Below, piece after piece: positions 4,917-23,937 of a stretch of DNA of 64,000 nucleotides (the stretch's first letter is position 1; every line of letters begins with the position of its first letter). The stretch spans positions 372,001-436,000 of the forward strand of contig NZ_CP060139.1 in NCBI RefSeq assembly GCF_014524565.1. Reading direction: 5' to 3'. The stretch is from Croceimicrobium hydrocarbonivorans. Lineage in GTDB: Bacteria > Bacteroidota > Bacteroidia > Flavobacteriales > Schleiferiaceae. The notes under the pieces are model-generated. The model did no database searches. It was not told where the DNA came from and saw only the letters and a program-made list of their open reading frames with translations. The position numbers were made by a program, and so were the translations under genes.

Positions 4917-7355
4917 TTAAACGGTTACTAAATTTTCATTCTGTTTTTGGGTGCTGATGGCCTCTAAACTTTGCCACTGCATTTTTCCTTGGTATTCATC
5001 AGCCATTTGTCCGGCCTCATTCATTCGGAAGAGTTTCAACCATTGATGGTCGAATAATTCTTGCAACATGGGATGCTTTTGCAGGATCTTATTAATGGCT
5101 TCCTGAGGGGCGTCGATCACCACATTTAAGCGCTGTGGTAGGTGTTGAAACTGCTTTCCATCGTGTACTGATTGCCAGGCTAAGCCGATGCGTAAATCGC
5201 CTGCCGATCCTTCTAGCACTCCAATACCGCCGCTCACATTGTGCAGGGTTTTATTACCGGCCCCAAAATTTTGATTGTCGGTGGTGCTGGCATAGTACTG
5301 AAGGTTAATCCAGGAAGTAACTACCATGGGGGCAGTCATGATCGCTTCCAAAATGGCGAAGTCTTTATCTTCCTGCCATTGGTAAGAGTGCAAGAAACTG
5401 CGAGCGCTTAGGTTTTTGCCCTTGGTTTTAGATCGCGGAGCGATTACAAAGGCATTGCAGCCTGCCAATCCCCATTCGGGGCGTAGCTGCGACCAGTCTT
5501 TGCTGCGTTTTACAATTTCTGTTTGTGCATCTTTCTCTTGAATTCCGAAACGCAAGGCTCTTTCACGTCGTGCTAATTCTGTGGCATGCTCCAGTTGCTC
5601 TTCCAGCTCTGAAAGCTCCTTCCATCGTTTCTTGTCGATTTCCCGACGGTTAATAATATGGATGGAATCGGTAGTAGTATCGTGCAGGGCCGCTATAAAT
5701 ATCGTATCCGCCGGAAGGCTTATCCCCTCCTCTTTTAAAGCGGCGCGTACCCTGGGGTCGTTTAATAATCGAGCAGAGGTCCAGGCATTAATTTCCCCCG
5801 AATGTCCACCGCAGGCGCCGCAATCCAGAGCAGTGGCGTGGGGGTTATTGACAGTGCTGGCACCATGCCCCACAATCATTACCATAGGAGCAAAGCCTTT
5901 ACTTAAGCCCATGGCCTTTAAGGCTCCCTGTGCCATTTGCACCTGGCTTTCGAAAGGAATTCCGGAAAGGTCAAGGTCTCGATCCGGGTCAGTGGCATTG
6001 GGATCTGCCGCAGGTCGGGTCCAGCCGAAAGAATCACTAATCAATTTGGAGAGGAAGCTTAGGCCTAGTGGACTCACAAAGGCGAAGGCCGATACTTTAC
6101 CGGATTTAAATCGCTTCCAGCTTTTAGCGATTTGCAGGCGGCTAAGTTTTAAACTGCGTTTTTGCTCGGTTTGACGAAGATCCCTGCCAATTTCTCGTAC
6201 TTCAACCGCGCTTGGAATAAGGGCCGGACATTGATTTCTGGCTTTATCAGAAGCCAATTCCTTATACTGCAGAGGCACACCGAAGAAACCCGCAAAACCC
6301 AGGGTTTCAATCTCGGGATCTACCTGTTCCAGATTTCGGCGGTAAAGCTCTGAGCGCACATCGATACAAAATACCGCTTGGGCCTTAGGACGCTGAGCTT
6401 GAGTTTCTTTCGCTTTATGATTTAAGCGCTCCTTTAATTCTCTTTGTGCGGCATAATCAAAGGCATCCTGCAATAGGAGGCGGCTCTCTAGACTTTCACT
6501 GCCCGGGAAGGCCGCCTTTAATTCGAGGATAGCTAAATCTGCCTTGCGTTGCTCCCAAGCTTTGTAGAGTTTTAAGTCGTTGAGTCCTTCAAGTAAGGCT
6601 GCTTCCCAAGTCAATAAAATGGTAAGGAAAGATTCCAGGTTTTGAGTATTGCCACCATAGAGTTTGGCTTGCCAGTCTTGGCCCGCCACGTAGGATGACC
6701 AACCTTTGAGTTTTAATAAGAGGCTGTGCAGATAGGGTTCCAAGGAAGGACCTTTAAGAGCCAGTACCTTAATATTTTGTTCGAGCGCTTCCTGATAATT
6801 GGCTGAAAGGCCTTTCACATAATTTCGGAAATTGGGTAGGCCCATTAATTCGGGTGCCCGGTTAATCATGGCTTCTTCGCGCCAGATTTCAAAGAGGTCA
6901 ATTCCCTCTGCATAAGGCTTATCATGCTGATTGAAAAAGTGAGCAGCCCATTGCGATACCCGATCTACCATAAAGCGCGACCAATCCTTGGTTCCATGTT
7001 CCCGGGCCAGATCTCCTAAGGTATAGAGTTCATAGAGCTCATAATTAGAAGCGGTAAGGGCCAGAAATTTAGCCTGGGCTAAAAACTCGGCACTGCTTTC
7101 CGGGCGATTATTAGCTTGAAGGGCGCGCTCGATATCCGCAGCGATAATCTGCCCTTCTTCGTACTGGGCTAGGTAAAAGTCCAGCGACATGCTCATGTCT
7201 ATTCCGGCGCGACGCTTAAGGCTGAAAGCCGCTTCTTGAAAATCTTGATGGAGCAGACCCAGATAGGGATTTACAGCGATGGAATTTTCTAAAGACCAGG
7301 CGGGAGCTAGCTTTTGGCAAGCTGTTTCGAGGGCCATTTTAATTTTTGCATCCAT
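4917..7355 (-). CDS. dabA: DabA, inorganic carbon transporter subunit (DUF2309/UPF0753)
   Basis: DabA is a peripheral zinc protein related to beta-carbonic anhydrases. With the membrane subunit DabB it drives energy-coupled, one-way CO2 hydration and so accumulates bicarbonate. The length, 812 residues, is typical. The expected zinc site is complete: C330 and D332 in CIDVRSE, H497 in GHGAS, and C512 in DCGACGGHSGE. The H-C spacing of 15 is what I recall for characterised DabA. The gene follows dabB by 20 bp and is followed by a small coiled-coil gene. A divergent LysR regulator suggests CO2-responsive expression. Confidence 0.93.
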   Translation of the reverse strand: MDAKIKMALETACQKLAPAWSLENSIAVNPYLGLLHQDFQEAAFSLKRRAGIDMSMSLDFYLAQYEEGQIIAADIERALQANNRPESSAEFLAQAKFLALTASNYELYELYTLGDLAREHGTKDWSRFMVDRVSQWAAHFFNQHDKPYAEGIDLFEIWREEAMINRAPELMGLPNFRNYVKGLSANYQEALEQNIKVLALKGPSLEPYLHSLLLKLKGWSSYVAGQDWQAKLYGGNTQNLESFLTILLTWEAALLEGLNDLKLYKAWEQRKADLAILELKAAFPGSESLESRLLLQDAFDYAAQRELKERLNHKAKETQAQRPKAQAVFCIDVRSELYRRNLEQVDPEIETLGFAGFFGVPLQYKELASDKARNQCPALIPSAVEVREIGRDLRQTEQKRSLKLSRLQIAKSWKRFKSGKVSAFAFVSPLGLSFLSKLISDSFGWTRPAADPNATDPDRDLDLSGIPFESQVQMAQGALKAMGLSKGFAPMVMIVGHGASTVNNPHATALDCGACGGHSGEINAWTSARLLNDPRVRAALKEEGISLPADTIFIAALHDTTTDSIHIINRREIDKKRWKELSELEEQLEHATELARRERALRFGIQEKDAQTEIVKRSKDWSQLRPEWGLAGCNAFVIAPRSKTKGKNLSARSFLHSYQWQEDKDFAILEAIMTAPMVVTSWINLQYYASTTDNQNFGAGNKTLHNVSGGIGVLEGSAGDLRIGLAWQSVHDGKQFQHLPQRLNVVIDAPQEAINKILQKHPMLQELFDHQWLKLFRMNEAGQMADEYQGKMQWQSLEAISTQKQNENLVTV

Positions 7356-7375
7356 AATTTTTGCTTTTTAAGCGA

Positions 7376-8935
7376 TTAGCTATTTGCTCGTTTCAATGAA
7401 CCAAAGAGGCGATCGGTGAGAACGCTCAGATAAAAACCATTGCGAAGGTGAATTTCCATCGCTCTGAACCTGCTGGAGGTTCGGAACCGTTTGGGCAAGA
7501 AATAAGTGCCCAGAGCCAAGATGGTAAAGGCCAGTAATACTCCTATGCTGAGGAAGATTTGTACGGTACTAAGCTCTGGACTCTGGGCAATTTCGGGCCT
7601 CAGAGCTAGGTGAATGATATCTTCCAGTATAAAGAAGCTTAGCACCACCAGCATAGCCCGTAATACCAGAATAAAGCGCGCTCTGAGTTCAATTCCTTCT
7701 TCAAAACTCTTGGAGAGCAGCACCGAAGTACCCACTGCGATAATGGCTGCAACAATGAGCAAACCTAAGCTCATTCCCTCAAAGCCACCTCGCAGAGTCA
7801 GCACCCCACCAAATATGACTAAGGCCAGTATCATGGCCATTAAGACCCTGTTCAGGGAGACTTCGGCCTTCTGGTTTAGCCATTGATCATTGCGATAACG
7901 ATCGATCTGGCTACCCGAACTTAGGAATGAGTGGGCCTTGTAGAAGGAATGAGCCATCAGGTGTAAAAGTGCTGCGGAATACAATCCTAGGCCGGAAAGC
8001 ATAAGGCTGAAACCCATATGCCCGATGGTTGAATAAGCCAATGATGTTTTAATGGCAGGCTGAGTTGGTGCCACCGCCGTTCCGTACAAAGCACTTAAGG
8101 CGCCAATGCTTAAGAGCAGAAGACTAGCCGCTTCGGTTCCACTAATTAAGGGCGAAAAGCGAATGATCAGGTAAGGACCGGCATTGATCAAACCGGCGTG
8201 TAAGAGTGCTGAAACCGGGGTTGGGGTTTCCATAACTTCGAGGAGCCAGCTGTGAAAGGGTATTTGCACCGCCTTAAGCGCGGCAGCCAGAACCATAAGG
8301 ATGGCCGCGGCATTTAATTGAGCAGACCAGGCTCCGGCTTCCAATTGACTAAAGATCGCCGACAATTGGGCGGTATGAAATTCGGAGTAAATCAGGGCCA
8401 AAGCACTGATGAGCAAGATATCGGCAATGCGGGCTACCACAAATTTCTTGCGGGCGGCTAAGCGGGCTCTTTCGCGATGACCGTAAAAGAGTAAGAGCCT
8501 TTGCAGGGCCATGCTGGTTCCCGTCCAAGACAGAGCTAGCAAGAGTAGGTTTCCGGATAAGACGAAGAACTGAATCAAAGCAACCGTAAGCGCTAATTTG
8601 GCGCTAAAGGCTCCTTCGCGGGAATCGCCATCCATATAATTACGACTGTAGCGAAATACGATAAAGGCGATCAGGTTAATCATGAAAAGCAGCAGGCTAT
8701 TGAGACGATCCACTCGGATGGAGAAACCTAAGTCGGCAAAACCGAATAGAGCCGACTCCATTGGCCCTTGGACATAGACCCAAACCAGGGCCAGGCTGGC
8801 CATGCTTAATCCCAAGATTGAAGATCGAATAGTGAGGCTATTGGGGAGCTTCGGATTTTTAGGCGCATAAAAAAACCCAATTCCAAGGTTTAGGATTGGG
8901 CTTAGCAGAATGGCAGTGAGAAGTATGGCAGTCAT
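7376..8935 (-). CDS. dabB: DabB, membrane subunit of the inorganic carbon transporter (complex I antiporter-like)
   Basis: The 519-residue protein is polytopic, with about 13 membrane helices, and belongs to the NuoL/MrpA-like proton_antipo_M family. Recognisable antiporter features are the helix with FHSWLLEVMETPTPVSALLHAGLINAG near 230-255 and the following S-rich and H-containing helices (SIGHMGFSLM, LMAHSFYKAHSF). It is first in the operon, directly upstream of dabA, which separates it from ordinary complex I subunits. It is expected to couple proton or sodium flow to CO2 hydration by DabA. The start is an ATG 88 bp from the divergent lysR start. Confidence 0.92.
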   Translation of the reverse strand: MTAILLTAILLSPILNLGIGFFYAPKNPKLPNSLTIRSSILGLSMASLALVWVYVQGPMESALFGFADLGFSIRVDRLNSLLLFMINLIAFIVFRYSRNYMDGDSREGAFSAKLALTVALIQFFVLSGNLLLLALSWTGTSMALQRLLLFYGHRERARLAARKKFVVARIADILLISALALIYSEFHTAQLSAIFSQLEAGAWSAQLNAAAILMVLAAALKAVQIPFHSWLLEVMETPTPVSALLHAGLINAGPYLIIRFSPLISGTEAASLLLLSIGALSALYGTAVAPTQPAIKTSLAYSTIGHMGFSLMLSGLGLYSAALLHLMAHSFYKAHSFLSSGSQIDRYRNDQWLNQKAEVSLNRVLMAMILALVIFGGVLTLRGGFEGMSLGLLIVAAIIAVGTSVLLSKSFEEGIELRARFILVLRAMLVVLSFFILEDIIHLALRPEIAQSPELSTVQIFLSIGVLLAFTILALGTYFLPKRFRTSSRFRAMEIHLRNGFYLSVLTDRLFGSLKRANS

Positions 8936-13413: not shown

Positions 13414-14025
13414 ATGAAGACAAAAGAGCGCATTTTAGCTAAAGCTTTAGAACTATTTAATTCTGAAGGCCTTAAAGAAGTTACTCTACGCAAGATTGCG
13501 GTAGCTCTGGAGATTAGTCAGGGTAATTTGAACTACCATTTCAAAACCAAAGGCGAATTAATAGCGGCCCTTTACTTCGATTTGGTAGCGCATATGGACC
13601 GTGAAATGGAAAAGATTGTCCAGGACCAGGCCCTCCTACCCCTAATTTATGAGAGCTCCTGGGTATCGATGAAAACCCTTTACGACTATCGCTTCATCAC
13701 CAAGGATCTTTATGCGGTGCTGGACGCTGACCCCGAATTAAAGAAACATTATTTGGGTCTGCAAGGATTGCGCAAGCAACAATATATGCAGCTCTTTAGC
13801 CATATGATCCAACAAGGCCTCATGCGCCCCGAAGAATTTGAAGGTGAATACCTGGGCCTCTATGAACGCATGAATATCCTAGGCGACAATTGGATCAATG
13901 CCTCCATCCTCTTTAAAGGCAAAGATCAGGCGGTAGTGAAGCATTACCATCGCTTGCTTTTTGAAATGGTTTATCCTTATTTAACTGAGGAGGGGAAGAA
14001 GGGCTATGGTGGATTGATGGATTAA
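13414..14025 (+). CDS. TetR-family transcriptional regulator
   Basis: The 203-residue protein has an N-terminal TetR helix-turn-helix (about 1-48: KERILAKALELFNSEGLKEVTLRKIAVALEISQGNLNYHF, reading continuous but quoted in part) and a helical ligand-binding C-terminal domain. The start ATG is 6 bp after the second operator-like repeat, so bound repressor would also block its own transcription. The likely target is the divergent flavin monooxygenase, with a ligand that is a substrate or product of that enzyme. The gene is the last one left of the putative tRNA-associated island. Confidence 0.88.
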   Translation: MKTKERILAKALELFNSEGLKEVTLRKIAVALEISQGNLNYHFKTKGELIAALYFDLVAHMDREMEKIVQDQALLPLIYESSWVSMKTLYDYRFITKDLYAVLDADPELKKHYLGLQGLRKQQYMQLFSHMIQQGLMRPEEFEGEYLGLYERMNILGDNWINASILFKGKDQAVVKHYHRLLFEMVYPYLTEEGKKGYGGLMD

Positions 14026-14452
14026 GATTTTCTTTTCATCTAATTGGATTTGAAGCGATAAATCTGTGGTTCTGCAGCATAGCAAATAACATACTTTCAT
14101 TTCTTACTACTATTTAATATAGATTATACTAGAGCAATCAGGTCATAGTATAGACAACAAAGACGAATAATCAGCACATGGTGTACCCTTCAAGTTACAA
14201 TCGAGCGTGCACGTAGTTATAAATAAAAAATCCCTTCTGATTACACTGGAAGGGATTTATGCGCTCGTAACAGAATTCGAACCTGTGACCGTCTGCTTAG
14301 AAAGCACAAAGCAGACAGTTCTTCACTTGCATTTTACTGTAAAACAGTAGTTTAAAATTGAAAAAGGTTCGGTCAGTCACTTATTATTAACAGTACGATT
14401 AACTGGGATTAAAACATACCCTATTGACTTTTTAGTTTGTTCAAACGGACGA
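14026..14452. other. Gene-free stretch holding a tRNA 3'-half remnant
   Basis: No credible gene is seen. The first 200 bp are AT-rich without structure I can name. The middle holds the decayed tRNA-Arg 3' half and its terminator (separate entry). The remaining 150 bp up to the fic stop are AT-rich. A hairpin (GTCTGCTT at 14291-14298, AAGCAGAC at 14308-14315) overlaps the edge of the remnant. Confidence 0.6.
14225..14302 (-). pseudogene. Decayed 3' half of tRNA-Arg plus terminator; candidate att site
   Basis: Read on the minus strand, this 78-nt segment aligns without gaps to the 3' half and terminator of the intact tRNA-Arg(UCU) at 23861-23937. The match begins with TTCTAAGCAGACGG, inside the anticodon loop. 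It is 31/32 identical through the anticodon stem, variable region and T-arm. It is degraded in the acceptor strand and again preserves AATCCCTTCC and GGGATTTTT of the terminator stem. Beyond the anticodon loop towards the 5' half there is no similarity. This is the shape left at the distal junction when an element recombines in a tRNA anticodon loop. Confidence 0.75.
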
Positions 14453-15580
14453 CTATTCAGTCATAAATAAAGAAAGATAATCATCAAAAACATACTTCTG
14501 CGGCTTTGAATCACCCCATTTTTTCAATATACCAATTCTCTCAAGGCTATCAACAAGCTTATAAGAAGCCGGTCTTGACAATCCGATGATCTCAGTTACC
14601 TCAGAAACTTCTACAATTGGCTTGACATACAAATATTCTACAACTTTTTGTGCATTTTCGGCCCTTCCTCGTAGAGTGTTAATTTTTTCACTGACTGTTC
14701 TATTCAAATTCAGAATTCCCTCTAAGGTGCCAATTGATGTTTTAGCAGTTTCTATGATTCCTGCTAAAAAAAATGTAATCCAAGCCTGCAAGTCACCAGA
14801 CTTCCTTACCAGCATTAGTTTTTCATAATATTCTAGCTTGTGCCTTTCGAAAAAGTCTGATAAATACAATAGCGGTTTTTCCAACACCTTCTGTTGAACT
14901 AGATATAAAGTGATTAACAGCCGCCCTACTCTACCGTTCCCATCTAAAAAAGGGTGTATTGTTTCAAATTGATAATGGATTAATGCTACTTTGACAAGAG
15001 GGTGTAAATTAGTTTCATCACTATTTGCAAATTTTTCTAAATCACCCATTAAGCCTGCTATTTCAATATGCGGAGGAGGCACAAATGACGCAGAGCTAAT
15101 TCCCATCCCCCCTATCCAATTCTGACTTCTACGAAACTCTCCCGGTTCTTTTCTTGCACCCCTCACCCCTTGTAAAATACTTTTATGTGCAATCTTTATT
15201 AATCTGCTGGAGATTGGGAGTTTTTTCAAGTGCTCAATTGCTAAATTCATGGCCTCAACATAATTTTGCACTTCCCGCCAATCATCCCTTCTTTCATCCC
15301 GAATCTGATTCTGTGATTGGACTGCTTCAGGCAGGTCTGTGTTGGTGCCTTCAATTTTACTTGATTTTGTAGCTTCCTTAACTACATGTAGCCTAATGAA
15401 TAAATCGATATTTGGGACAAACTTTGAAAACATATCGAGCTTACCTACAAGATTTGAAGCTTCAGCTAATAGATTGGCTAAATTTGTATCCTTCATTTCC
15501 CATCTCCTATCAATTTCAGAGGGTTTGAAGTAATGATAGGTTCCTTCATTGATAAAGTACCCTTGGTGAAATTGGTCCAT
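14453..15580 (-). CDS. Fic/DOC family protein (AMP transferase-like)
   Basis: The 375-residue protein has a complete Fic motif, HPFLDGNGRVGR at 209-220, with catalytic H209 and the nucleotide-binding GNGR. An inhibitory-helix motif (S73-xxx-E77-G78) in the N-terminal Fic_N region marks it as the class with an N-terminal autoinhibitory glutamate. A C-terminal winged-helix-like domain (about 300-370, EVSEVTEIIGLSRPASYKLVDSLERIGIL) suggests DNA binding or self-regulation. Such proteins transfer AMP or other nucleotides onto targets. The targets here are unknown. It is the outermost island gene, on the same strand as all other island genes. Confidence 0.9.
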   Translation of the reverse strand: MDQFHQGYFINEGTYHYFKPSEIDRRWEMKDTNLANLLAEASNLVGKLDMFSKFVPNIDLFIRLHVVKEATKSSKIEGTNTDLPEAVQSQNQIRDERRDDWREVQNYVEAMNLAIEHLKKLPISSRLIKIAHKSILQGVRGARKEPGEFRRSQNWIGGMGISSASFVPPPHIEIAGLMGDLEKFANSDETNLHPLVKVALIHYQFETIHPFLDGNGRVGRLLITLYLVQQKVLEKPLLYLSDFFERHKLEYYEKLMLVRKSGDLQAWITFFLAGIIETAKTSIGTLEGILNLNRTVSEKINTLRGRAENAQKVVEYLYVKPIVEVSEVTEIIGLSRPASYKLVDSLERIGILKKWGDSKPQKYVFDDYLSLFMTE

Positions 15581-15764
15581 ATTAACAGCAATATTATAGA
15601 GAAGTTAACAAAACAGGCGATTTGGTTAACAGAATCCAGCCATTGTTAATCAAAACCGCGGAATAGTTTACAAAACTAGTTGAGCTGTATAATAAATCCC
15701 AAGTTTGGTATAAAACTATTTAGATTGAACAACTATCACCACAGGTACATCGAAGTTATAGTGA

Positions 15765-17039
15765 CTACTTAAACCTCCTGAAAGCCTGTACAAACTGGTA
15801 GTAGCCGTAGCCTACGAATAATCGAGCAAAGAAGTCAAGTATATATACGAAGGCATTGGTCTCAAATACAAAGCTTGATAATCCATCATACAAATCCAGC
15901 TTATGCAGCGGATTTAATAATCCGATAAACAACATTGTATATTCATCACCGGTCAGCCACCGTCCTTCAAACTGTCCAGAAATAAGAATTAGCACGAAGA
16001 AAACCACAACCACAACTAAAGTAAAAACAACTGCTCGAAGCCAAGATGTTTTATGACGATTACTAATGCTGTTTAAGCCCAAAATCAAATAATCCTGCAA
16101 AGTCCTTAATTTAATTCTCCATTTTGCCCAATCACCTCCCTTAAACTTTACCCAAGTAGCATTTTGCTTTGCTCTCGCTTCAAATTGTCCATACTTACTT
16201 GCTTCATAAGGATCGCCATTTTCTAAGGAAAGCTTCTTTATTACTCTAAATGTTTCTTGAAATTGCACTGTTGAAATACTATAATCATAATCTACATTAC
16301 TAGCAAACAACTTATTTTCAGAACTGTAGTTTACAGAAAAAGACAAATCATTCTCTAAAAATGCCAATCCATTATTAAATATTGATGAATACAGGTCAAA
16401 CCCTTTTAAAAATCTAACCTCTATGATACTTACATGTTCATTAAATGAACTGCCGCGAAGTAGTAAGTTATGGCAGAATACAGTCTCAGTTACTGAAAAC
16501 ACTCCCTCAATTGCGGAATTAAATACAACAGAAGGTTCATTAAAATTACAACCATGAATTTTTAAAACACCTCTTATTTTTACTGAAATCAATTCAAAAG
16601 GTCCTGAAAAATCACATCGGGCGATTTGCCCCCCATCAAAGACCACTCCTATCAACTTGAAATTGGAACCGAATTTCGTATCAAAACATTTTAAATCAAC
16701 TGAAGACTTATGATCATCACCAAAGGAAAATATAGTTAAACCTAGTTTAATGTTACATCTAAAAAACGTCAACCTCAAACTAATTGAAGTATTTTGATCA
16801 AAAACTAATTCACCTTCAATGTGAAGGTCTTTAAAGTCTGCATAATTCAGATTACAACCATAGAAGCAGATATCTCCAAAATACTCTCCGGACACCCGAA
16901 CAGCTAAGTCCGTATAATCCGCTATTATTATTTCTACCGGGTCTCTCGTGCTAAATTTGTGTACGAGTCGAAGCGGCTGGTCTTTTTCTTCAGGTTTAAG
17001 ACTTAGTAGCTCTCTTAAATTAAGAACCTTCCTTGGCAT
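15765..17039 (-). CDS. Pentapeptide-repeat-like protein with C-terminal membrane helices
   Basis: The 424-residue protein has a long N-terminal region (about 25-245) of irregular five-residue periodicity (for example YADFKDLHIEG, FNEPSVVFNSAIEG, LRGSSFNEHVSI) of the right-handed quadrilateral beta-helix kind. A linker follows, then two or three hydrophobic segments (about 330-355 and 385-415) separated by a region with the loop GLLNPLHKL. The architecture recalls bacterial proteins that combine pentapeptide repeats with an ion-channel-like C-terminus. No function is assignable. It is AT-rich relative to the window flanks, in line with island DNA. Confidence 0.65.
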   Translation of the reverse strand: MPRKVLNLRELLSLKPEEKDQPLRLVHKFSTRDPVEIIIADYTDLAVRVSGEYFGDICFYGCNLNYADFKDLHIEGELVFDQNTSISLRLTFFRCNIKLGLTIFSFGDDHKSSVDLKCFDTKFGSNFKLIGVVFDGGQIARCDFSGPFELISVKIRGVLKIHGCNFNEPSVVFNSAIEGVFSVTETVFCHNLLLRGSSFNEHVSIIEVRFLKGFDLYSSIFNNGLAFLENDLSFSVNYSSENKLFASNVDYDYSISTVQFQETFRVIKKLSLENGDPYEASKYGQFEARAKQNATWVKFKGGDWAKWRIKLRTLQDYLILGLNSISNRHKTSWLRAVVFTLVVVVVFFVLILISGQFEGRWLTGDEYTMLFIGLLNPLHKLDLYDGLSSFVFETNAFVYILDFFARLFVGYGYYQFVQAFRRFK

Positions 17040-17468
17040 TAAAAAGCTTTAATCGTTATCCCCATCCCCAATTCATATCCACTTTAAACAGGTAACAAGC
17101 ATATTGTATCCAATTAACAGAACAACTTAAACCATCTCACGATCCCGCAACCTCAATAGGCATATCCTTCAACTGACTTTCTGATATGCATCTCAAAGGC
17201 CTTGAGATGCACATAAAGGGTTTTCGGTAAATCCTTAAGATCTGAATTCAATCATCTACCAGAGGTTTTCAAATTCAAATTCCGGGTAAGGAGAATTGAT
17301 ATTTACATAATAGTCGAAACAAGAAATTCAAGGATTTCTCAAACCTAAAGACCTTCCATATCAGTTGCAAGGGGAAAATTCTCCATTTTTTTATCAGAAA
17401 ATCCCTTTAGCTAGTCCTTCATCAAAATACTCGGAATGAATTTGCAACCTGATCCTAAATAGACTTAT
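17040..17468. other. Gene-free stretch with one perfect hairpin
   Basis: I see no gene in these 429 bp. The only clear structure is a 10-bp perfect inverted repeat (TGCATCTCAA at 17187-17196, TTGAGATGCA at 17202-17211) around AGGCC, without a T-run on either strand. It is therefore not a normal intrinsic terminator. Confidence 0.6.
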
Positions 17469-18743: not shown

Positions 18744-18862
18744 TTTCCTCTAATCTATTTAGAAATGAGCAGGTAATACATCCTCTTAATTTCGGTAGGC
18801 TTGGTAAAAAAACAGAAATCTCCAATCTGTTCTTCTAGTTTAATCATTGGGAAGGCAGAAAT

Positions 18863-19483
18863 CTAAATGCCTGAAATTAAATCCTTTTCAATTAAATACC
18901 TTAATTCCAATAATGATATACCCTCCTCTGGAGTTTGATCTATATTCCAATCAAGAAATTCCAGCGTGCCAACAAATGAAATCACATTATACTCTCCCAA
19001 TATATGATCGAGGTAAAGAAAGAATAATGCCTGACTGCCGATTAAATTTGAATTCAAATTCTTGATATAGACTGCGGCATTCACCTTTTGATGGGTAGAG
19101 TCGATCTCTGGGATCACTAGAATATGACTACTTGGGAATTCGGTATCCTCAAAATTTAGGCTAATCTCATCTTTAGCTTGTCGAAACTTATGGACTATCC
19201 AATTATCAATAACTGGCTTAGCTTCAAAAATAACTTCCACTGGCCTAAGCCCCTCTTTCTGACCATCTGCACTTAAGATCAAGACAGTTTCCCCATTTTC
19301 ACCAATAGTCATTTCAGGGTAAAGCATGGGATGATATTCTCTAGCCTTTGCACTTAATTGATTGTAGATCCCGTAATCCTTAAAGTCGGATCGGATAAAA
19401 TCCTCCAATTCATTTTTATGGCGAATCACCCATTTCCAGAATTTTTCTTCCCTAGTGGAACGTTTAAAAATAGTAATGGCCAT
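18863..19483 (-). CDS. Uncharacterised cytosolic protein coupled to the YiiX-like gene
   Basis: The 206-residue protein begins MAITIFKRSTREEKFWKWVIRHKNELEDF and contains the motif ETVLILSADGQKEGLRPVEVIFEAKPVIDNW at about 65-95. I associate that FWKWF...LVISADG pattern with an uncharacterised bacterial family. It has no signal peptide or membrane helix. Its ATG overlaps the TAA of the YiiX-like gene by one base, so translation is coupled. A toxin/immunity or effector/partner relationship with the hydrolase is possible but purely positional. Confidence 0.65.
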   Translation of the reverse strand: MAITIFKRSTREEKFWKWVIRHKNELEDFIRSDFKDYGIYNQLSAKAREYHPMLYPEMTIGENGETVLILSADGQKEGLRPVEVIFEAKPVIDNWIVHKFRQAKDEISLNFEDTEFPSSHILVIPEIDSTHQKVNAAVYIKNLNSNLIGSQALFFLYLDHILGEYNVISFVGTLEFLDWNIDQTPEEGISLLELRYLIEKDLISGI

Positions 19484-20171
19484 TAATTTAGAATTATAAC
19501 ACTATCCACATTCATTAGCTTATCCGAATTAAACATGGCAGCAGGAGAAATCACCTTTTCATCCAATGGAATCTGATCCCCGTATCGCTCTTTCAATTTA
19601 GCTTTAACCTGATCATGACTAAGGTCAAAGTCCGCAAGCCTTTCTAAAGCCCCGATTTCAATTCCAGTTGCCTGCTGGTAAATTTTCCATACCAATTCAG
19701 AGCAATACATTTTATCGTCAGACCATTCAAAGTATATATCATAGGGCTTGCCCATATATTGCTCTCCTATTCGCCTCATTTTCTTCAAGGTGATTGAATC
19801 TAGAACCTGGTCTGCGTTTTTCAAACGCTTTATTACATAATGCCCCTCTTTACCTCGAGCGATCCATTTTTTAAGGGGTGTTAGGCGTACCGGCTGTACC
19901 GCCTCATAAACGAAATACTGGCCTTGCTTCTCATAAATTATCCCCATATGACTGTATGGAGAGTGGGTCGCCAATTGAATGGCTTTGCTTTGAGCTGACT
20001 TTGAGCTTTGGAAAATTATATCGCCACTTTGAATCCTTTGTTCGAGGGAATGAGCTTCCCTTAGCTCAACATCTTGGACGACCACTTCTCCGAATTGATA
20101 CATTTTAAAGCCCAATAACTAATCAAGCCTACAATTCCCAGAGCCAAAGCAATTAGAAGTCTTTTTCTCAT
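19483..20171 (-). pseudogene. YiiX-like permuted papain-fold (NlpC/P60) hydrolase with frameshifted signal peptide
   Basis: The catalytic part is intact. GDIIFQSS, then SHMGIIY with the histidine, YEAVQP, and YCSELVWKIY with the catalytic cysteine are the hallmarks of the YiiX/YebB permuted papain fold. It can start at the ATG reading MYQFGEVVV (20103). Immediately upstream, from the ATG at 20171, a different frame encodes a strong signal peptide (MRKRLLIALALGIVGLISYW). It would fuse in frame if the AAAA at about 20103-20107 had one more A. Homologues I remember are exported, so this looks like a one-base loss (or a sequencing or assembly error). Without the signal peptide the enzyme would stay cytosolic. 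Confidence 0.65.
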
Positions 20172-20383
20172 CCAAGATTAAGGTTTAGGGCTTTAATATA
20201 CTTGGAGTTTCTAGCAATTGCTAAGTTAAACTTCTAGCTTTTTAGGCGGCATGGCTTTAGATGAAGAACTGCGATTAAACGCATTAGATAGGCAAGCGAG
20301 CTTAGGCCTGTAAAGAAATAAAAGCTGATCCTAATGGGCTAATCATTATCCTTGAAAAGGTTCCTGGATGACCGCCGCCTCCC

Positions 20384-21304
20384 CTATTTTACAGATACCA
20401 CTCTCTGATTTTCGGTCAGTAGTTCACCTTTCTTCAGCTTCATGGAGAATTGAGCGGCTCCTTCTGCAGACATATGCACCAGATCATTAAAACACTCATC
20501 CTTCATTTTCATATCTCCGTAATCGTAGAAGGGTATTTCTGGGTAGTGCTTAAAATAGAAAGCATAGAATTCAGGCTGAAGAACTTCCACGGATTCCCAT
20601 AATAAGTGATGAACCGGAGGATTAATGAATATCAATGCAATTCCTTCCCTTTTACAGTAGTCTACGATCTTATTTAAAAAATACAATTCGTGTTTTGAAG
20701 TATCAAAATTCAGATCACCGACCTCAATTTGCTCTACTGCTACAAATCTCCTTTTCGCACTTTTTAGCTTGTTAACAGTTTTGCTTTCAGATCCTTCACC
20801 GTAAGTAGCCCTACCTGCAAATAAAAGCTGAAACCCAATTAAAGATTGAGACATAAAGGCCCTTAAAGTTTCCTTTGGCCTTAAGGAGTATAAATAGTGC
20901 AACTCTTCTGTATTTAATAGGGGCAAGTAAAGCTTTAACTTATCATTCAGTTGAGTTTCATTTAAAAACCACTTTCCACCGATACTGGTTGAAATATTTC
21001 TGGAGTTAAAGCCCAGAAAGAGCGTATCGATTTGAGGATTCAGTTCCTTGAGTTGCTTGAGCTTGATATAGCTATAAAAATAAGGGTCGCCTCCATGTGC
21101 ATAATTCTTATACTCGGGTAAATAGGTTTCGTCAAAAGACAGATTCATTTGTGAATTCCCAAGGACTAAGACATGCTTTTCGGATTTAATCTTGAATGGA
21201 CCTAATTTACTTCCGAGGAATACTCGGTTAACTAAAAACATTAGTCCAATAAACAAGCCCAGAACCAGGAAGAACAGCAATACTTTGCTAAGAAATGTTC
21301 GCAT
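20384..21304 (-). CDS. SGNH/GDSL-like membrane-anchored protein paired with MBOAT (AlgJ/X-like role)
   Basis: I start this gene at the ATG at 21304 (MRTFLSKVLLFF), 4 bp after the upstream MBOAT stop. A longer frame would overlap that gene by 38 bp. The 306-residue protein has an N-terminal signal anchor, a block-I-like GNSQ (serine at residue 51), and near the C-terminus FNDLVHMSAEGA, which supplies the expected Asp and His of an SGNH triad. Such proteins act in the periplasm with MBOAT acyltransferases to O-acylate an exopolysaccharide. The acceptor is unknown. Confidence 0.75.
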   Translation of the reverse strand: MRTFLSKVLLFFLVLGLFIGLMFLVNRVFLGSKLGPFKIKSEKHVLVLGNSQMNLSFDETYLPEYKNYAHGGDPYFYSYIKLKQLKELNPQIDTLFLGFNSRNISTSIGGKWFLNETQLNDKLKLYLPLLNTEELHYLYSLRPKETLRAFMSQSLIGFQLLFAGRATYGEGSESKTVNKLKSAKRRFVAVEQIEVGDLNFDTSKHELYFLNKIVDYCKREGIALIFINPPVHHLLWESVEVLQPEFYAFYFKHYPEIPFYDYGDMKMKDECFNDLVHMSAEGAAQFSMKLKKGELLTENQRVVSVK

Positions 21305-21308
21305 CGGA

Positions 21309-22763
21309 CTAAAAATCAAAATAGATAAAATCCTGTCGGGCTCCACCGAAATAAAATAAGAGAATCCCTAAGAAACCATACAATGCCCACCGATACCTTC
21401 TTTTCCAGTTTAAACCCAAAGTTTCCAAGCTATGCTTGTCTTTTCGATAGAGCCATTCCACCAAAAAGAAAACCATGACCATTAATATAATTCCAAGCGC
21501 TTTCTTTCCTCCTGCTAAATTGGGCATGGCTAATAAGGAAGGTGAAAAAATTCCATTGAGATAAGCCCAAGCATGGCTTATACTTTCTGCCCGGAAGAAA
21601 ATCATGGAAAAGCCCGTAAGACTAAATACCTTCATCATCTGAAGCATTTCTTTAACTGAAGGCATGATCTTGCCTTCTGCTACCAGTCCGGTATACTGAA
21701 CCATTTCCTTTCTGAATAGAACAAATGGTAACATGTAGGTTGCATGGATAGCGCCCCATACAATGAATGTCCAGTTTGCCCCATGCCAAAAGCCAATTAC
21801 TAAGAATTGTAATACCGTTATAAAGGCCAGCTTTGTGGTACTTTTTCTATGCTTCAAGGCTAATGGCAGATATAAGTAATCCCTAAACCAGGTTGTAAGC
21901 GATATATGCCATTTGCGCCAAGCCTCAGGTATATTCCTCGAAAAATACGGATAGGAAAAGTTCTTCATCAAGTTAAAACCGAAAAGGCGAGCAGTGCCAA
22001 TTGCTATATCGGAATAACCTGAAAAGTCAGCATAGATTTGAATGGTGAAAAATATGGCGCCTAATACCAGTGCACTTCCATTATAATCTGAAATTCCCCC
22101 AAAAGTTTGATTAGCGAAATTGGCACAGTTATCCGCAATAACCATTTTTTTAAATAATCCCCAAAGCATTTGACGTAAGCCATCTACTGCCTTTTTATAA
22201 TCAAAATGTCTCGGTTTATAAAATTGCGGTAAAAGATTGGAGGCCCTCTCAATTGGACCAGCCACTAATTGTGGGAAAAAGCTCACAAAAGCTAAAAATC
22301 CGATTAAATCTTTAGTAGGCTCTAATTTTCGCTTATAGACATCTATTGTGTAGCTCAATGTCTGAAAAGTATAAAAACTAATTCCTACAGGAAGAATGAT
22401 ATTTAAGGAGTCCCCAGCAATTTCATAGCCGAAAACAGTAAATGCTGCTTTAAAATTACTGAGAAAGAAGTTGTAGTATTTGAAGAAGCCTAAAAGACCA
22501 AGGTTTGTAAATACACTTAACCAAAGGAGTGTCTTTCTCTTTTTGGGACTAAGTTCTCGAGTTAGGCCTCGACCAATTGCAAAATCAACAAGGGAACTAA
22601 ATACTATTAGAGATAGAAACCTCCAATCCCACCATCCATAAAAAACATAGCTCGCCAGTAAAAGAAAAGCGTTTTGAAGCTTCAGACTAGTATTCGTCAA
22701 AAACCAATAGACCAAGAACACTACTGGTAAAAAAACCGCGAAATCTATGGAATTAAATAGCAT
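21309..22763 (-). CDS. MBOAT-family O-acyltransferase (AlgI-like)
   Basis: The 484-residue polytopic membrane protein opens with MLFNSIDFAVFLPVVFLVYW and has WWDWRF early. It carries the MBOAT core: H286 in WRKWHISLTTWFRDY and the catalytic H327 in FWHGANWTF. It should move acyl groups across the inner membrane for O-acetylation of a polysaccharide by the SGNH partner immediately downstream. No polysaccharide polymerase or glycosyltransferase genes are nearby, so it probably modifies a polymer made elsewhere. It is the first gene inside the right end of the island. Confidence 0.9.
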   Translation of the reverse strand: MLFNSIDFAVFLPVVFLVYWFLTNTSLKLQNAFLLLASYVFYGWWDWRFLSLIVFSSLVDFAIGRGLTRELSPKKRKTLLWLSVFTNLGLLGFFKYYNFFLSNFKAAFTVFGYEIAGDSLNIILPVGISFYTFQTLSYTIDVYKRKLEPTKDLIGFLAFVSFFPQLVAGPIERASNLLPQFYKPRHFDYKKAVDGLRQMLWGLFKKMVIADNCANFANQTFGGISDYNGSALVLGAIFFTIQIYADFSGYSDIAIGTARLFGFNLMKNFSYPYFSRNIPEAWRKWHISLTTWFRDYLYLPLALKHRKSTTKLAFITVLQFLVIGFWHGANWTFIVWGAIHATYMLPFVLFRKEMVQYTGLVAEGKIMPSVKEMLQMMKVFSLTGFSMIFFRAESISHAWAYLNGIFSPSLLAMPNLAGGKKALGIILMVMVFFLVEWLYRKDKHSLETLGLNWKRRYRWALYGFLGILLFYFGGARQDFIYFDF

Positions 22764-23125
22764 TTGAAATTTTACAATAAGTATTTATATCTACTTTAAA
22801 TCAAAATAACTTGCACAACAAACTATTCAATAATAAAATTATCTACCCAAATTTAATCAGGCAGAAAAACACCAGTAAAATTTCAAATTCATGCGAAGCA
22901 GTTTTTACTTTAAAATATAATTCAATCTTAAATAATGCTATCTGATCAAAAATCCAGACCACATTACTCTGTCTTTATATCTTAAGTAAATACAACAAAG
23001 AAACTGCTTCCACAAAGATATATTCTTAATCCAAATTATTCCTAATTGGACTATAGGGTTTTTCTGTTTTTTTAAAGTTCCCAAGGAAAAGCCATCTCGA
23101 AAAGCCATCTCGAAAAGCTTGAACC
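22764..23125. other. AT-rich gene-free stretch left of the repeat array
   Basis: There is no credible gene. The stretch is AT-rich and contains a 13-bp tandem duplication (AAAAGCCATCTCG at 23087-23099 and 23100-23112) just before the first degenerate unit of the 117-bp array. A minus-strand open frame here is made of array sequence and is not supported. Confidence 0.55.
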
Positions 23126-23773
23126 TATAAGTTGATTCTGATTGAGTTCTTTGGTCATACACCAAAAATCCTCGGGCTGTCGCCCTGTATTTTTCATTTC
23201 TAGCCCTGGCTTGCAAGCAAGCTTACGCCGGGAAGGATTAGCAAGCTGATCCTGATAAGACTCAATGGTCATTCACCAAAAATCCTCGGGCTAGCGCCCT
23301 GGCTTTTTCATTTCTAGCCTTGGGCTTGCAAGCGAGCTTGCGCCGGGAAAAGGATTAGCAAACTGATCCTGCTAAAGCTCAATGGTCATTCACCAAAAAT
23401 CCACGGGCTGTCGCCCTGGCTTTTTCATTTCTAGCCTTGGGCGTGCAAGCAAGCTTGCGCCGGGATAAGGATTAGCAAGCTGATCCTGCTAAAGTTTAAT
23501 GGTCATACACCAAAAATCCGCGGGCTGTCGCCCTGTATTTTTCATTTCTAGCCTTGGGCGTGCAAGCAAGCTTGCGCCGGGATAAGGATTAGCAAGCTGA
23601 TCTTGGTTAAGCTTAATAGTCATACACCAAAAATCCGCGGGCTTTCGCCCTGTATTTTTCATTTCTAGCCCTGGGCTTGCAAGCAAGCTTGCGCCGGGAA
23701 AAGGATTAGCAAGCTGATCCTGATAAGGCTCAATGGTCATTCACCAAAAATCCACGGGCTAGCGCCCTGGCTT
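23126..23773. repeat. Tandem array of a 117-bp hairpin-rich repeat (six units plus a degenerate leading one)
   Basis: Units recognisable by CACCAAAAATCC begin at 23160, 23274, 23391, 23508, 23625 and 23742, spaced 114, 117, 117, 117 and 117 bp. A worn partial unit precedes the first, and the last is cut after its first hairpin. Each unit carries a GGGC/GCCC hairpin, a T-rich run (CTTTTTCATTTCTAGCC), a strong GCAAGC-GCTTGC hairpin bounded by GGC/GCC, and AGCAAGCTGATCCTG. The units differ at a few positions, so duplication is not brand new. The 117-bp period is a multiple of three, which creates meaningless open frames through it. No genes lie between units. Confidence 0.9.
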
Positions 23774-23866
23774 TTTGTTTTAAGCTCCATAGGCTTGCAA
23801 GCGAGCTTGCGCATGGAGCTTAAAACAAAAATCCCCTCCGGTTGCACCGGAAGGGATTTTTGGTGA
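23741..23866. repeat. Inverted repeat joining the repeat array to the tRNA 3' end
   Basis: TTTTTGTTTTAAGCTCCAT (23772-23790) and its exact complement (23813-23831) form a 19-bp perfect stem around a 22-nt centre that itself folds (GCAAGCGAGCTTGC). Outside the stem both arms carry a different hairpin, and outside that the same TCACCAAAAATCC. On the right arm, read on the minus strand, this sequence is the tRNA-Arg 3' end running into its terminator. The left arm is therefore an inverted, altered copy of the tRNA end region. Confidence 0.8.
23827..23861 (-). terminator. Terminator of tRNA-Arg
   Basis: The AAAAATCCC/GGGATTTTT stem continues into TCCGGT/ACCGGA with a single mismatch and a short loop. 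It starts directly at the encoded CCA of the tRNA. A degraded copy sits beside the tRNA remnant near 14.2 kb. Confidence 0.85.
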
Positions 23867-23937
23867 TCGCGACAGGATTCGAACCTGTGACCGTCTGCTT
23901 AGAAGGCAGATGCTCTATCCAGCTGAGCTACGCGACC
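23861..23937 (-). tRNA. tRNA-Arg (anticodon UCU), CCA encoded
   Basis: The minus strand folds as a full cloverleaf. The acceptor is GGTCGCG paired with CGCGATC (one G-U) and the D-arm is GCTC/GAGC. The anticodon stem TCTGC/GCAGA has loop CTTCTAA (anticodon TCT at 23903-23901), and the T-arm ACAGG/CCTGT has TTCGAAT. Discriminator A is followed by encoded CCA. The gene is intact and its 3' half is probably the copy brought in by the element to its left. Confidence 0.95.

Follow-up and report, generated by a model that had tools for sequence, protein, structure and literature searches.

Structured repeats behind tRNA-Arg(TCT) of Croceimicrobium hydrocarbonivorans and a candidate family of tRNA-linked elements in Bacteroidota

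The DNA analysed here (the window) is a 64,000-nucleotide stretch of Croceimicrobium hydrocarbonivorans, positions 372,001 to 436,000 of contig NZ_CP060139.1, in which an array of palindromic repeats adjoins the gene for tRNA-Arg(TCT). A first-pass annotation of the sequence had described six units of near-constant 117-bp period with two hairpins each, and this description holds: TRF reports one array at 23152-23812 (period 117, 5.7 copies, 89% match), the motif CACCAAAAATCC starts at 23160, 23274, 23391, 23508, 23625, and 23742 (spacings of 114, 117, 117, 117, and 117), and each of the six units has both hairpins. Five copies of a third hairpin, GGATCAGCTTGCTAATCC and its variants, had been overlooked. 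The array had also been ended too early, at 23773, as the sixth CACCAAAAATCC unit continues up to the tRNA terminator (23827-23861), giving a large palindrome. On the plus strand, CACCAAAAATCC is an inverted copy of the tRNA-Arg 3′ end and the start of its terminator (23854-23865, minus strand). Read in the direction of the tRNA, the six head-to-tail units of 114-117 bp all lie in its 3′ trailer, and seven terminator-like sites (six on the plus strand) are found in the region as compared to 1.9 ± 1.4 in shuffled sequence. The earlier view of a structured repeat whose position beside a tRNA matters is therefore kept, as is its rejection of clustered regularly interspaced short palindromic repeats (CRISPR), which is excluded because no unique spacers separate the 117-bp units. 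Rfam covariance models matched only tRNA and tmRNA (transfer-messenger RNA) in the window and 18 element loci, and a known RNA family was rejected as a candidate. A separate 13-bp tandem repeat, GAAAAGCCATCTC (2.5 copies, 23086-23118), lies just past the distal end of the array.

The same order of parts, in the tRNA sense, defines the element wherever it was found: the tRNA, a flank (f), the terminator hairpin (hp1), an arm, a central hairpin (hp2), arm′, hp1′, f′, an often C-rich linker, a third hairpin (hp3), and then the next unit or other sequence. The central hairpin has the form CAAG-CTTG-CTTG (CAAGCTTGCTTG), hp1′ and f′ together form a mirrored terminator that closes on the 3′ flank of the tRNA, and hp3 copies the T-stem of the adjacent tRNA (GGATCA...TAATCC) with a GG-to-CC spacing that varies from about 12 to 31 nt. 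Measured from the end of the tRNA to that of hp3, the median length is 158 bp (147-175 bp between the 5th and 95th percentiles), and the host tRNAs carry the T-loop TTCGAAT in nearly all cases.

Each copy is tailored to its own locus. The outer mirror f/f′ scores 23.6 with its own partner, as compared to 11.0 with partners from other tRNAs and 11.9 with partners from the same tRNA type, and 82% of loci exceed the 95th percentile of the swapped scores. The inner arms behave alike (27.4 own vs 14.4 swapped). The three bases outside GGATCA...TAATCC equal the adjacent T-stem at 181 of 267 positions on the 3′ side (86.8 ± 7.7 when permuted) and at 112 of 267 on the 5′ side (62.3 ± 6.2). No such fit was seen for pairing between the linker and the 5′ half of the tRNA, where a locus's own tRNA does no better than other tRNAs.

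The tRNA-Arg(TCT) locus was fetched from about 30 family genomes picked regardless of repeats. Roughly a dozen of these loci have the same anatomy with a different sequence, the mirrored part tracking each species' own terminator, and the rest have a plain terminator. Tandem arrays with a 108-125-bp period are present in G001, G004, G005, G014, and G027, with a longer period in G003. A survey pattern that combines the central hairpin with hp3 (AAGCTYGCTT...GGATCA...AATCC) was then applied to 88 family, 395 order, and 296 phylum genomes, in all of which the reversed pattern gave zero matches. Matches lie 44-62 bp behind tRNA-Arg(TCT, ACG), tRNA-Pro(TGG), tRNA-Ser(GCT, TGA), and tRNA-Val(GAC, TAC), behind a tRNA-Leu that ARAGORN misses, and, in two cases, behind 3′ ends read as tmRNA. 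A stricter pattern yielded at least 120 loci in 84,980 named species genomes, a set that partly overlaps the first (L241 and G019, for example, have identical linkers). Among the 120 matches listed, all 80 titles with a taxon at or below phylum level point to Bacteroidota and one reads only "uncultured bacterium". Of the 120, 89 follow a tRNA or tmRNA of the same strand whose end is 30-62 bp away; the others are six later array units, nine with a T-arm fragment upstream, six at contig edges, and ten that were not placed. Copies per locus range from one to about six units. Many of the surveyed genomes are metagenome assemblies. As the pattern includes hp2 and hp3 and passes over diverged members, the element count is a floor.

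At L297 2530-4151, tRNA-Arg(TCT) is separated by about 1.6 kb, with one long open reading frame and no integrase, from a displaced tRNA 3′ fragment and its element; this stretch looks like a very small genomic island. One genome (L060, or G058:C29, with G058:C34 and C3) holds, among the matches listed, eight copies of a tRNA-Arg 3′ end (43-53 bp) kilobases apart, perhaps from serial island insertions. Phage records held no match to the element. In viral contigs the strict pattern had 0 matches, and a looser one had 15, 14 of them apparently chance matches in coding sequence and one genuine: L317 6549-6655 (IMGVR_UViG_3300042896_000682) is an element behind a tRNA-Ser 3′ end on a contig classed as viral, and may be the host flank of a provirus. 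A phage origin was rejected on these results.

Behind hp3 comes a stretch identical to the tRNA 3′ end over 5-61 bp, counted from AATCC in the T-loop, the base at which the identity in the tRNA-linked repeats (TLRs) of E. coli also starts. Among 88 loci, the identity spans at least 17 bp in about 20 and 57-61 bp in three; in most it is only 5-9 bp long, and in the window array AATCCT alone is left. Direct repeats of the tRNA 3′ end, beginning in the T-loop (position ~58), mark the limits of fresh copies. In G104 and G100, the body is flanked on either side by the entire tRNA 3′ end with its terminator; these flanking repeats are identical within each genome (X1 = X2) yet differ between the two. 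Empty sites occur in the same genus (G110, G089, and others), and the filled site of G102 shares its downstream sequence with G110. In the home genus, G002 has no element at tRNA-Arg(TCT). At tRNA-Arg(ACG) of G022, the second copy has the flank that belongs to tRNA-Arg(TCT).

Within the home genus the element is stable. It is present at tRNA-Arg(TCT) in most members and at tRNA-Pro(TGG) in all seven, as a single copy or an array. At tRNA-Pro(TGG) the flanks f and f′ have changed together (CGACCAAAAAG/CTTTTTGGTCG, CGACAAAAAGG/CCTTTTTGTCG, CGACTAAAAAA/TTTTTTAGTCG, and CGACGAAAAAC/GTTTTTCGTCG), and in a MAFFT alignment of the seven species 10 of 46 pairs are changed on both sides. No shuffle out of 500 (mean 0.094) and no slid version (at most 0.056) reaches the covariation score of 0.169. 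One C-against-A position in hp3 of this element is mismatched in all five sequences that have letters there. RNAalifold was also run on a MAFFT alignment of ten first units, in which the arms are misaligned, making it uninformative for the fold. Linkers at the same tRNA across the genus have a mean similarity of 10.9, as compared to 5.0 between different tRNAs of one genome and a background of 4.9. This likeness per tRNA, with none within a genome, indicates that each home-genus locus is an old lineage kept vertically; it speaks against active jumping and in favour of the fold having been retained. Vertical inheritance and compensatory changes together favour a retained structured RNA or DNA element.

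The first-pass annotation had tied the array to an island junction and to mobility. This tie does not hold, as the array is bound to the tRNA gene: the sister genome G001 keeps an 87% identical array at the same site although the adjoining DNA differs, with 18753-23129 and 14007-17433 of the window missing from G001. An island-specific feature is thereby ruled out. Because the array is shared with G001 while the adjoining segment differs, the array was not made by an island; islands insert beside or through these elements, as they do at any tRNA. The segment beside the array encodes Fic, C92 peptidase, and MBOAT proteins, with a weak DUF695 match, and no integrase was found in it by Pfam. A degraded tRNA-Arg fragment with its terminator in DNA absent from G001 is a relic that marks an old insertion (Table 1).

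Units are not scattered in ordinary intergenic gaps either. The long array occurs once in the 4.04-Mb single-contig Croceimicrobium genome (G000), where the element is restricted to three tRNA-linked sites: tRNA-Arg(TCT), tRNA-Pro(TGG), and a displaced tRNA-Ser 3′ fragment. The second has units at the tRNA and displaced units 5 kb downstream; the latter are two decayed tRNA-Pro-type units set apart from the tRNA-Pro element by inserted DNA (L331, G000:C1:295803-295983). At the third (L116, G000:C1:2757988-2761594), the element follows a degenerate 3′ fragment of tRNA-Ser that lies ~48 kb downstream of tRNA-Ser(TGA) (G000:C1:2711162), which suggests that a 48-kb island inserted in that tRNA. 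Elsewhere in the window (4917-8935), a gene for a DabA-type inorganic carbon transporter adjoins a proton-antiporter-type (DabB-like) gene, with a LysR regulator nearby.

Table 1. Features of the array and the related tRNA fragment (window coordinates; units numbered from the tRNA outward)
Feature	Coordinates	Strand	Details
tRNA-Arg(TCT)	23861..23937	-	T-loop TTCGAAT; ARAGORN; Rfam RF00005, 72.2 bits
tRNA terminator, first mirror half (f + hp1)	23827..23861	-	AAAAATCCCTTCCGGTGCAACCGGAGGGGATTTTT; from sequence
Unit 1	23742..23826	-	arm 23813-23826; central hairpin core AAGCTCGCTT 23799-23808; arm′ 23777-23790
Unit 1, continued		-	hp1′ 23755-23767; mirrored flank f′ GGATTTTTGGTG 23742-23753
Unit 1 hp3, T-stem mimic	23703..23720	-	GGATCAGCTTGCTAATCC; hp3 class fits T-stems of adjacent tRNAs
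Unit 2	23586..23690	-	hp2 core 23681-23690; arm 23655-23670; hp1′ 23638-23650; f′ 23625-23636; hp3 23586-23603
Unit 3	23469..23573	-	hp2 core 23564-23573; hp1′ 23521-23533; f′ 23508-23519; hp3 23469-23486
Unit 4	23352..23456	-	hp2 core 23447-23456; hp1′ 23404-23416; f′ 23391-23402; hp3 23352-23369
Unit 5	23235..23339	-	hp2 core 23330-23339; hp1′ 23287-23299; f′ 23274-23285; hp3 23235-23252
Unit 6, distal	23119..23224	-	hp2 core 23215-23224; hp1′ 23173-23185; f′ 23160-23171; end decayed, no intact hp3
Degraded tRNA-Arg 3′ fragment plus terminator	14222..14303	-	TTCTAAGCAGACGGTCACAGGTTCGAATTC, 14273-14302; segment absent from G001

The window array may well have arisen by tandem amplification of a TLR, one of a new type found across Bacteroidota, a reading on which we are evenly balanced. 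The broader proposal, which we hold more tentatively, is that this is a phylum-wide and so far undescribed structured element, rebuilt from its tRNA or tmRNA gene through the mirrored terminator and T-arm mimic, and that it and the E. coli TLRs form a single bacterial class of structured RNAs or DNA elements linked to tRNA genes, sharing a T-loop boundary and a dedicated machinery. On the TLR reading, the unit, a body with a direct repeat of the tRNA 3′ end on each side, would have come from an ancestral event at the T-loop boundary, either insertion or duplication, and unequal recombination between units would have led to arrays like that in the window and to their homogenisation. Here both the mechanism of propagation and the function are what we infer. 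Several points weigh against the TLR reading. Templated repair of the palindrome could keep its arms matched without selection; the fixed survey pattern contains both hp2 and hp3, so that it misses diverged members and itself accounts for part of the conservation of these two motifs; the element is lacking at most tRNAs of each genome and in many species, and any function is therefore dispensable; the E. coli TLRs are without the mirrored terminator and central hairpin, leaving common descent unproven; and the RNA step is likewise unproven.

The filled and empty sites within one genus, the downstream sequence shared between G102 and its empty relatives, the bare tRNA-Arg(TCT) of G002, the direct repeats around fresh copies, and the foreign flank in G022 could all be read as the work of a selfish non-coding mobile element, in which a ~165-bp unit integrates at the T-loop together with its own tRNA 3′ end by a recombinase acting in trans. 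We consider this unlikely, as the home-genus loci are vertically inherited and copies within a genome unrelated, and as the only genuine copy among phage records and viral contigs is the one behind tRNA-Ser. The variable hp3 loop is unfit for a tyrosine recombinase and excludes an attachment core of that kind, with its fixed 6-8-bp overlap. Y1_Tnp, the Y1/RAYT (REP-associated tyrosine transposase) domain, is absent from 16 of 23 positive genomes, the complete G000 included; an origin from repetitive extragenic palindromes (REP), which the first-pass annotation had raised, was rejected on the same count. A mutational by-product is improbable in our view: fold-back DNA synthesis at tRNA terminators would make functionless inverted copies for recombination to multiply. 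Such templated copying would account for arms and a mirror that match local sequence and for homogenised arrays, but leaves unexplained the conservation of the hp2 core and of the hp3 mismatch and motif, the lineage-conserved linker, and the persistence at tRNA-Pro in all seven genus members. Least probable, and by our judgement a very slim chance, is a transcription insulator, whose tandem bidirectional terminators would shield the tRNA gene from antisense transcription. The excess of terminator-like sites, six of seven on the plus strand, speaks for it; the T-stem mimic and the direct repeats of the tRNA 3′ end are left unexplained, and most tRNAs do without the element.

Other known systems share single traits with the TLR-like element proposed here. 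Tandem integron attC sites are palindromes of similar spacing, but the array has no cassettes and each of its sites copies its tRNA neighbour. REP and bacterial interspersed mosaic elements (BIME) with RAYT are likewise short extragenic palindromes that are sometimes clustered; unlike them, the element is tied to tRNA and not dispersed. Islands and integrative and conjugative elements (ICE) integrated at tRNA genes have attachment sites that also repeat the tRNA 3′ end, whereas the element is ~165 bp long, has no genes, is inherited vertically, and ends in a variable-loop hp3 rather than a fixed core.

The closest likeness is to the TLRs of E. coli, a class known since 1978 (Egan & Landy 1978; Rudd 1999; as cited in Stenum et al. 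2021, PMC8144298) that comprises 22 copies at ten loci, with 18-19 bp at the 3′ end equal to the upstream tRNA or rRNA (PMC8144298). The class includes rttR of tyrTV, the repeats of argQZYV and lysT-Q, and RrA/B/F of the rrn operons; by definition its members follow a tRNA or rRNA gene of the same operon. They had no known function until the work on RrA/B/F, three TLRs that give read-through small RNAs binding Hfq and CsrA (PMC8144298). No Bacteroidota counterpart was found in open-access papers. Three of the ten loci were compared in E. coli MG1655, with junctions ...GAGT|AATCCTTCCCCCACCACCA (tyrV), ...GGCGAGT|AATCCTCCCGGATGCACCA (argQZYV), and GAGCGAAGCGAGT|CATCCTGCACGACCCACCA (lysT-Q). As in Bacteroidota, the repeats lie directly behind tRNA genes in one to a few tandem copies (1-5 in E. 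coli), and the copy of the tRNA 3′ end begins at AATCC (position ~58). Both also have a closing helix complementary to the T-stem (GGATnA...TAATCC/CATCC), which falls outside the published TLR definition; the upstream arms GGGGAAGGATGA, GGGAGGATAA, and GAAGGATAA form it in E. coli, over 10 bp at Tyr, 8 bp at Arg, and fewer, by eye, at Lys. The E. coli copies compared differ in having no mirrored terminator and no CAAGCTTGCTTG hairpin, and the Bacteroidota elements in retaining 5-9 bp of tRNA identity in most copies and in using tmRNA as well. Common ancestry is likely, though not proven. At lysQ of E. coli K-12 (L345 1778-2100) the complete tRNA 3′ end and terminator stand on both sides of the TLR, as in G104, which makes it a clear example for work on the insertion of such elements. 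The survey pattern finds elements that are missing from Rfam release 15 and that can be confused with island ends or tRNA fragments. With more than 100 comparable loci, a defined anatomy, covariation, and filled and empty sites, a phylum-wide family opens the old TLR puzzle to comparison and deletion.
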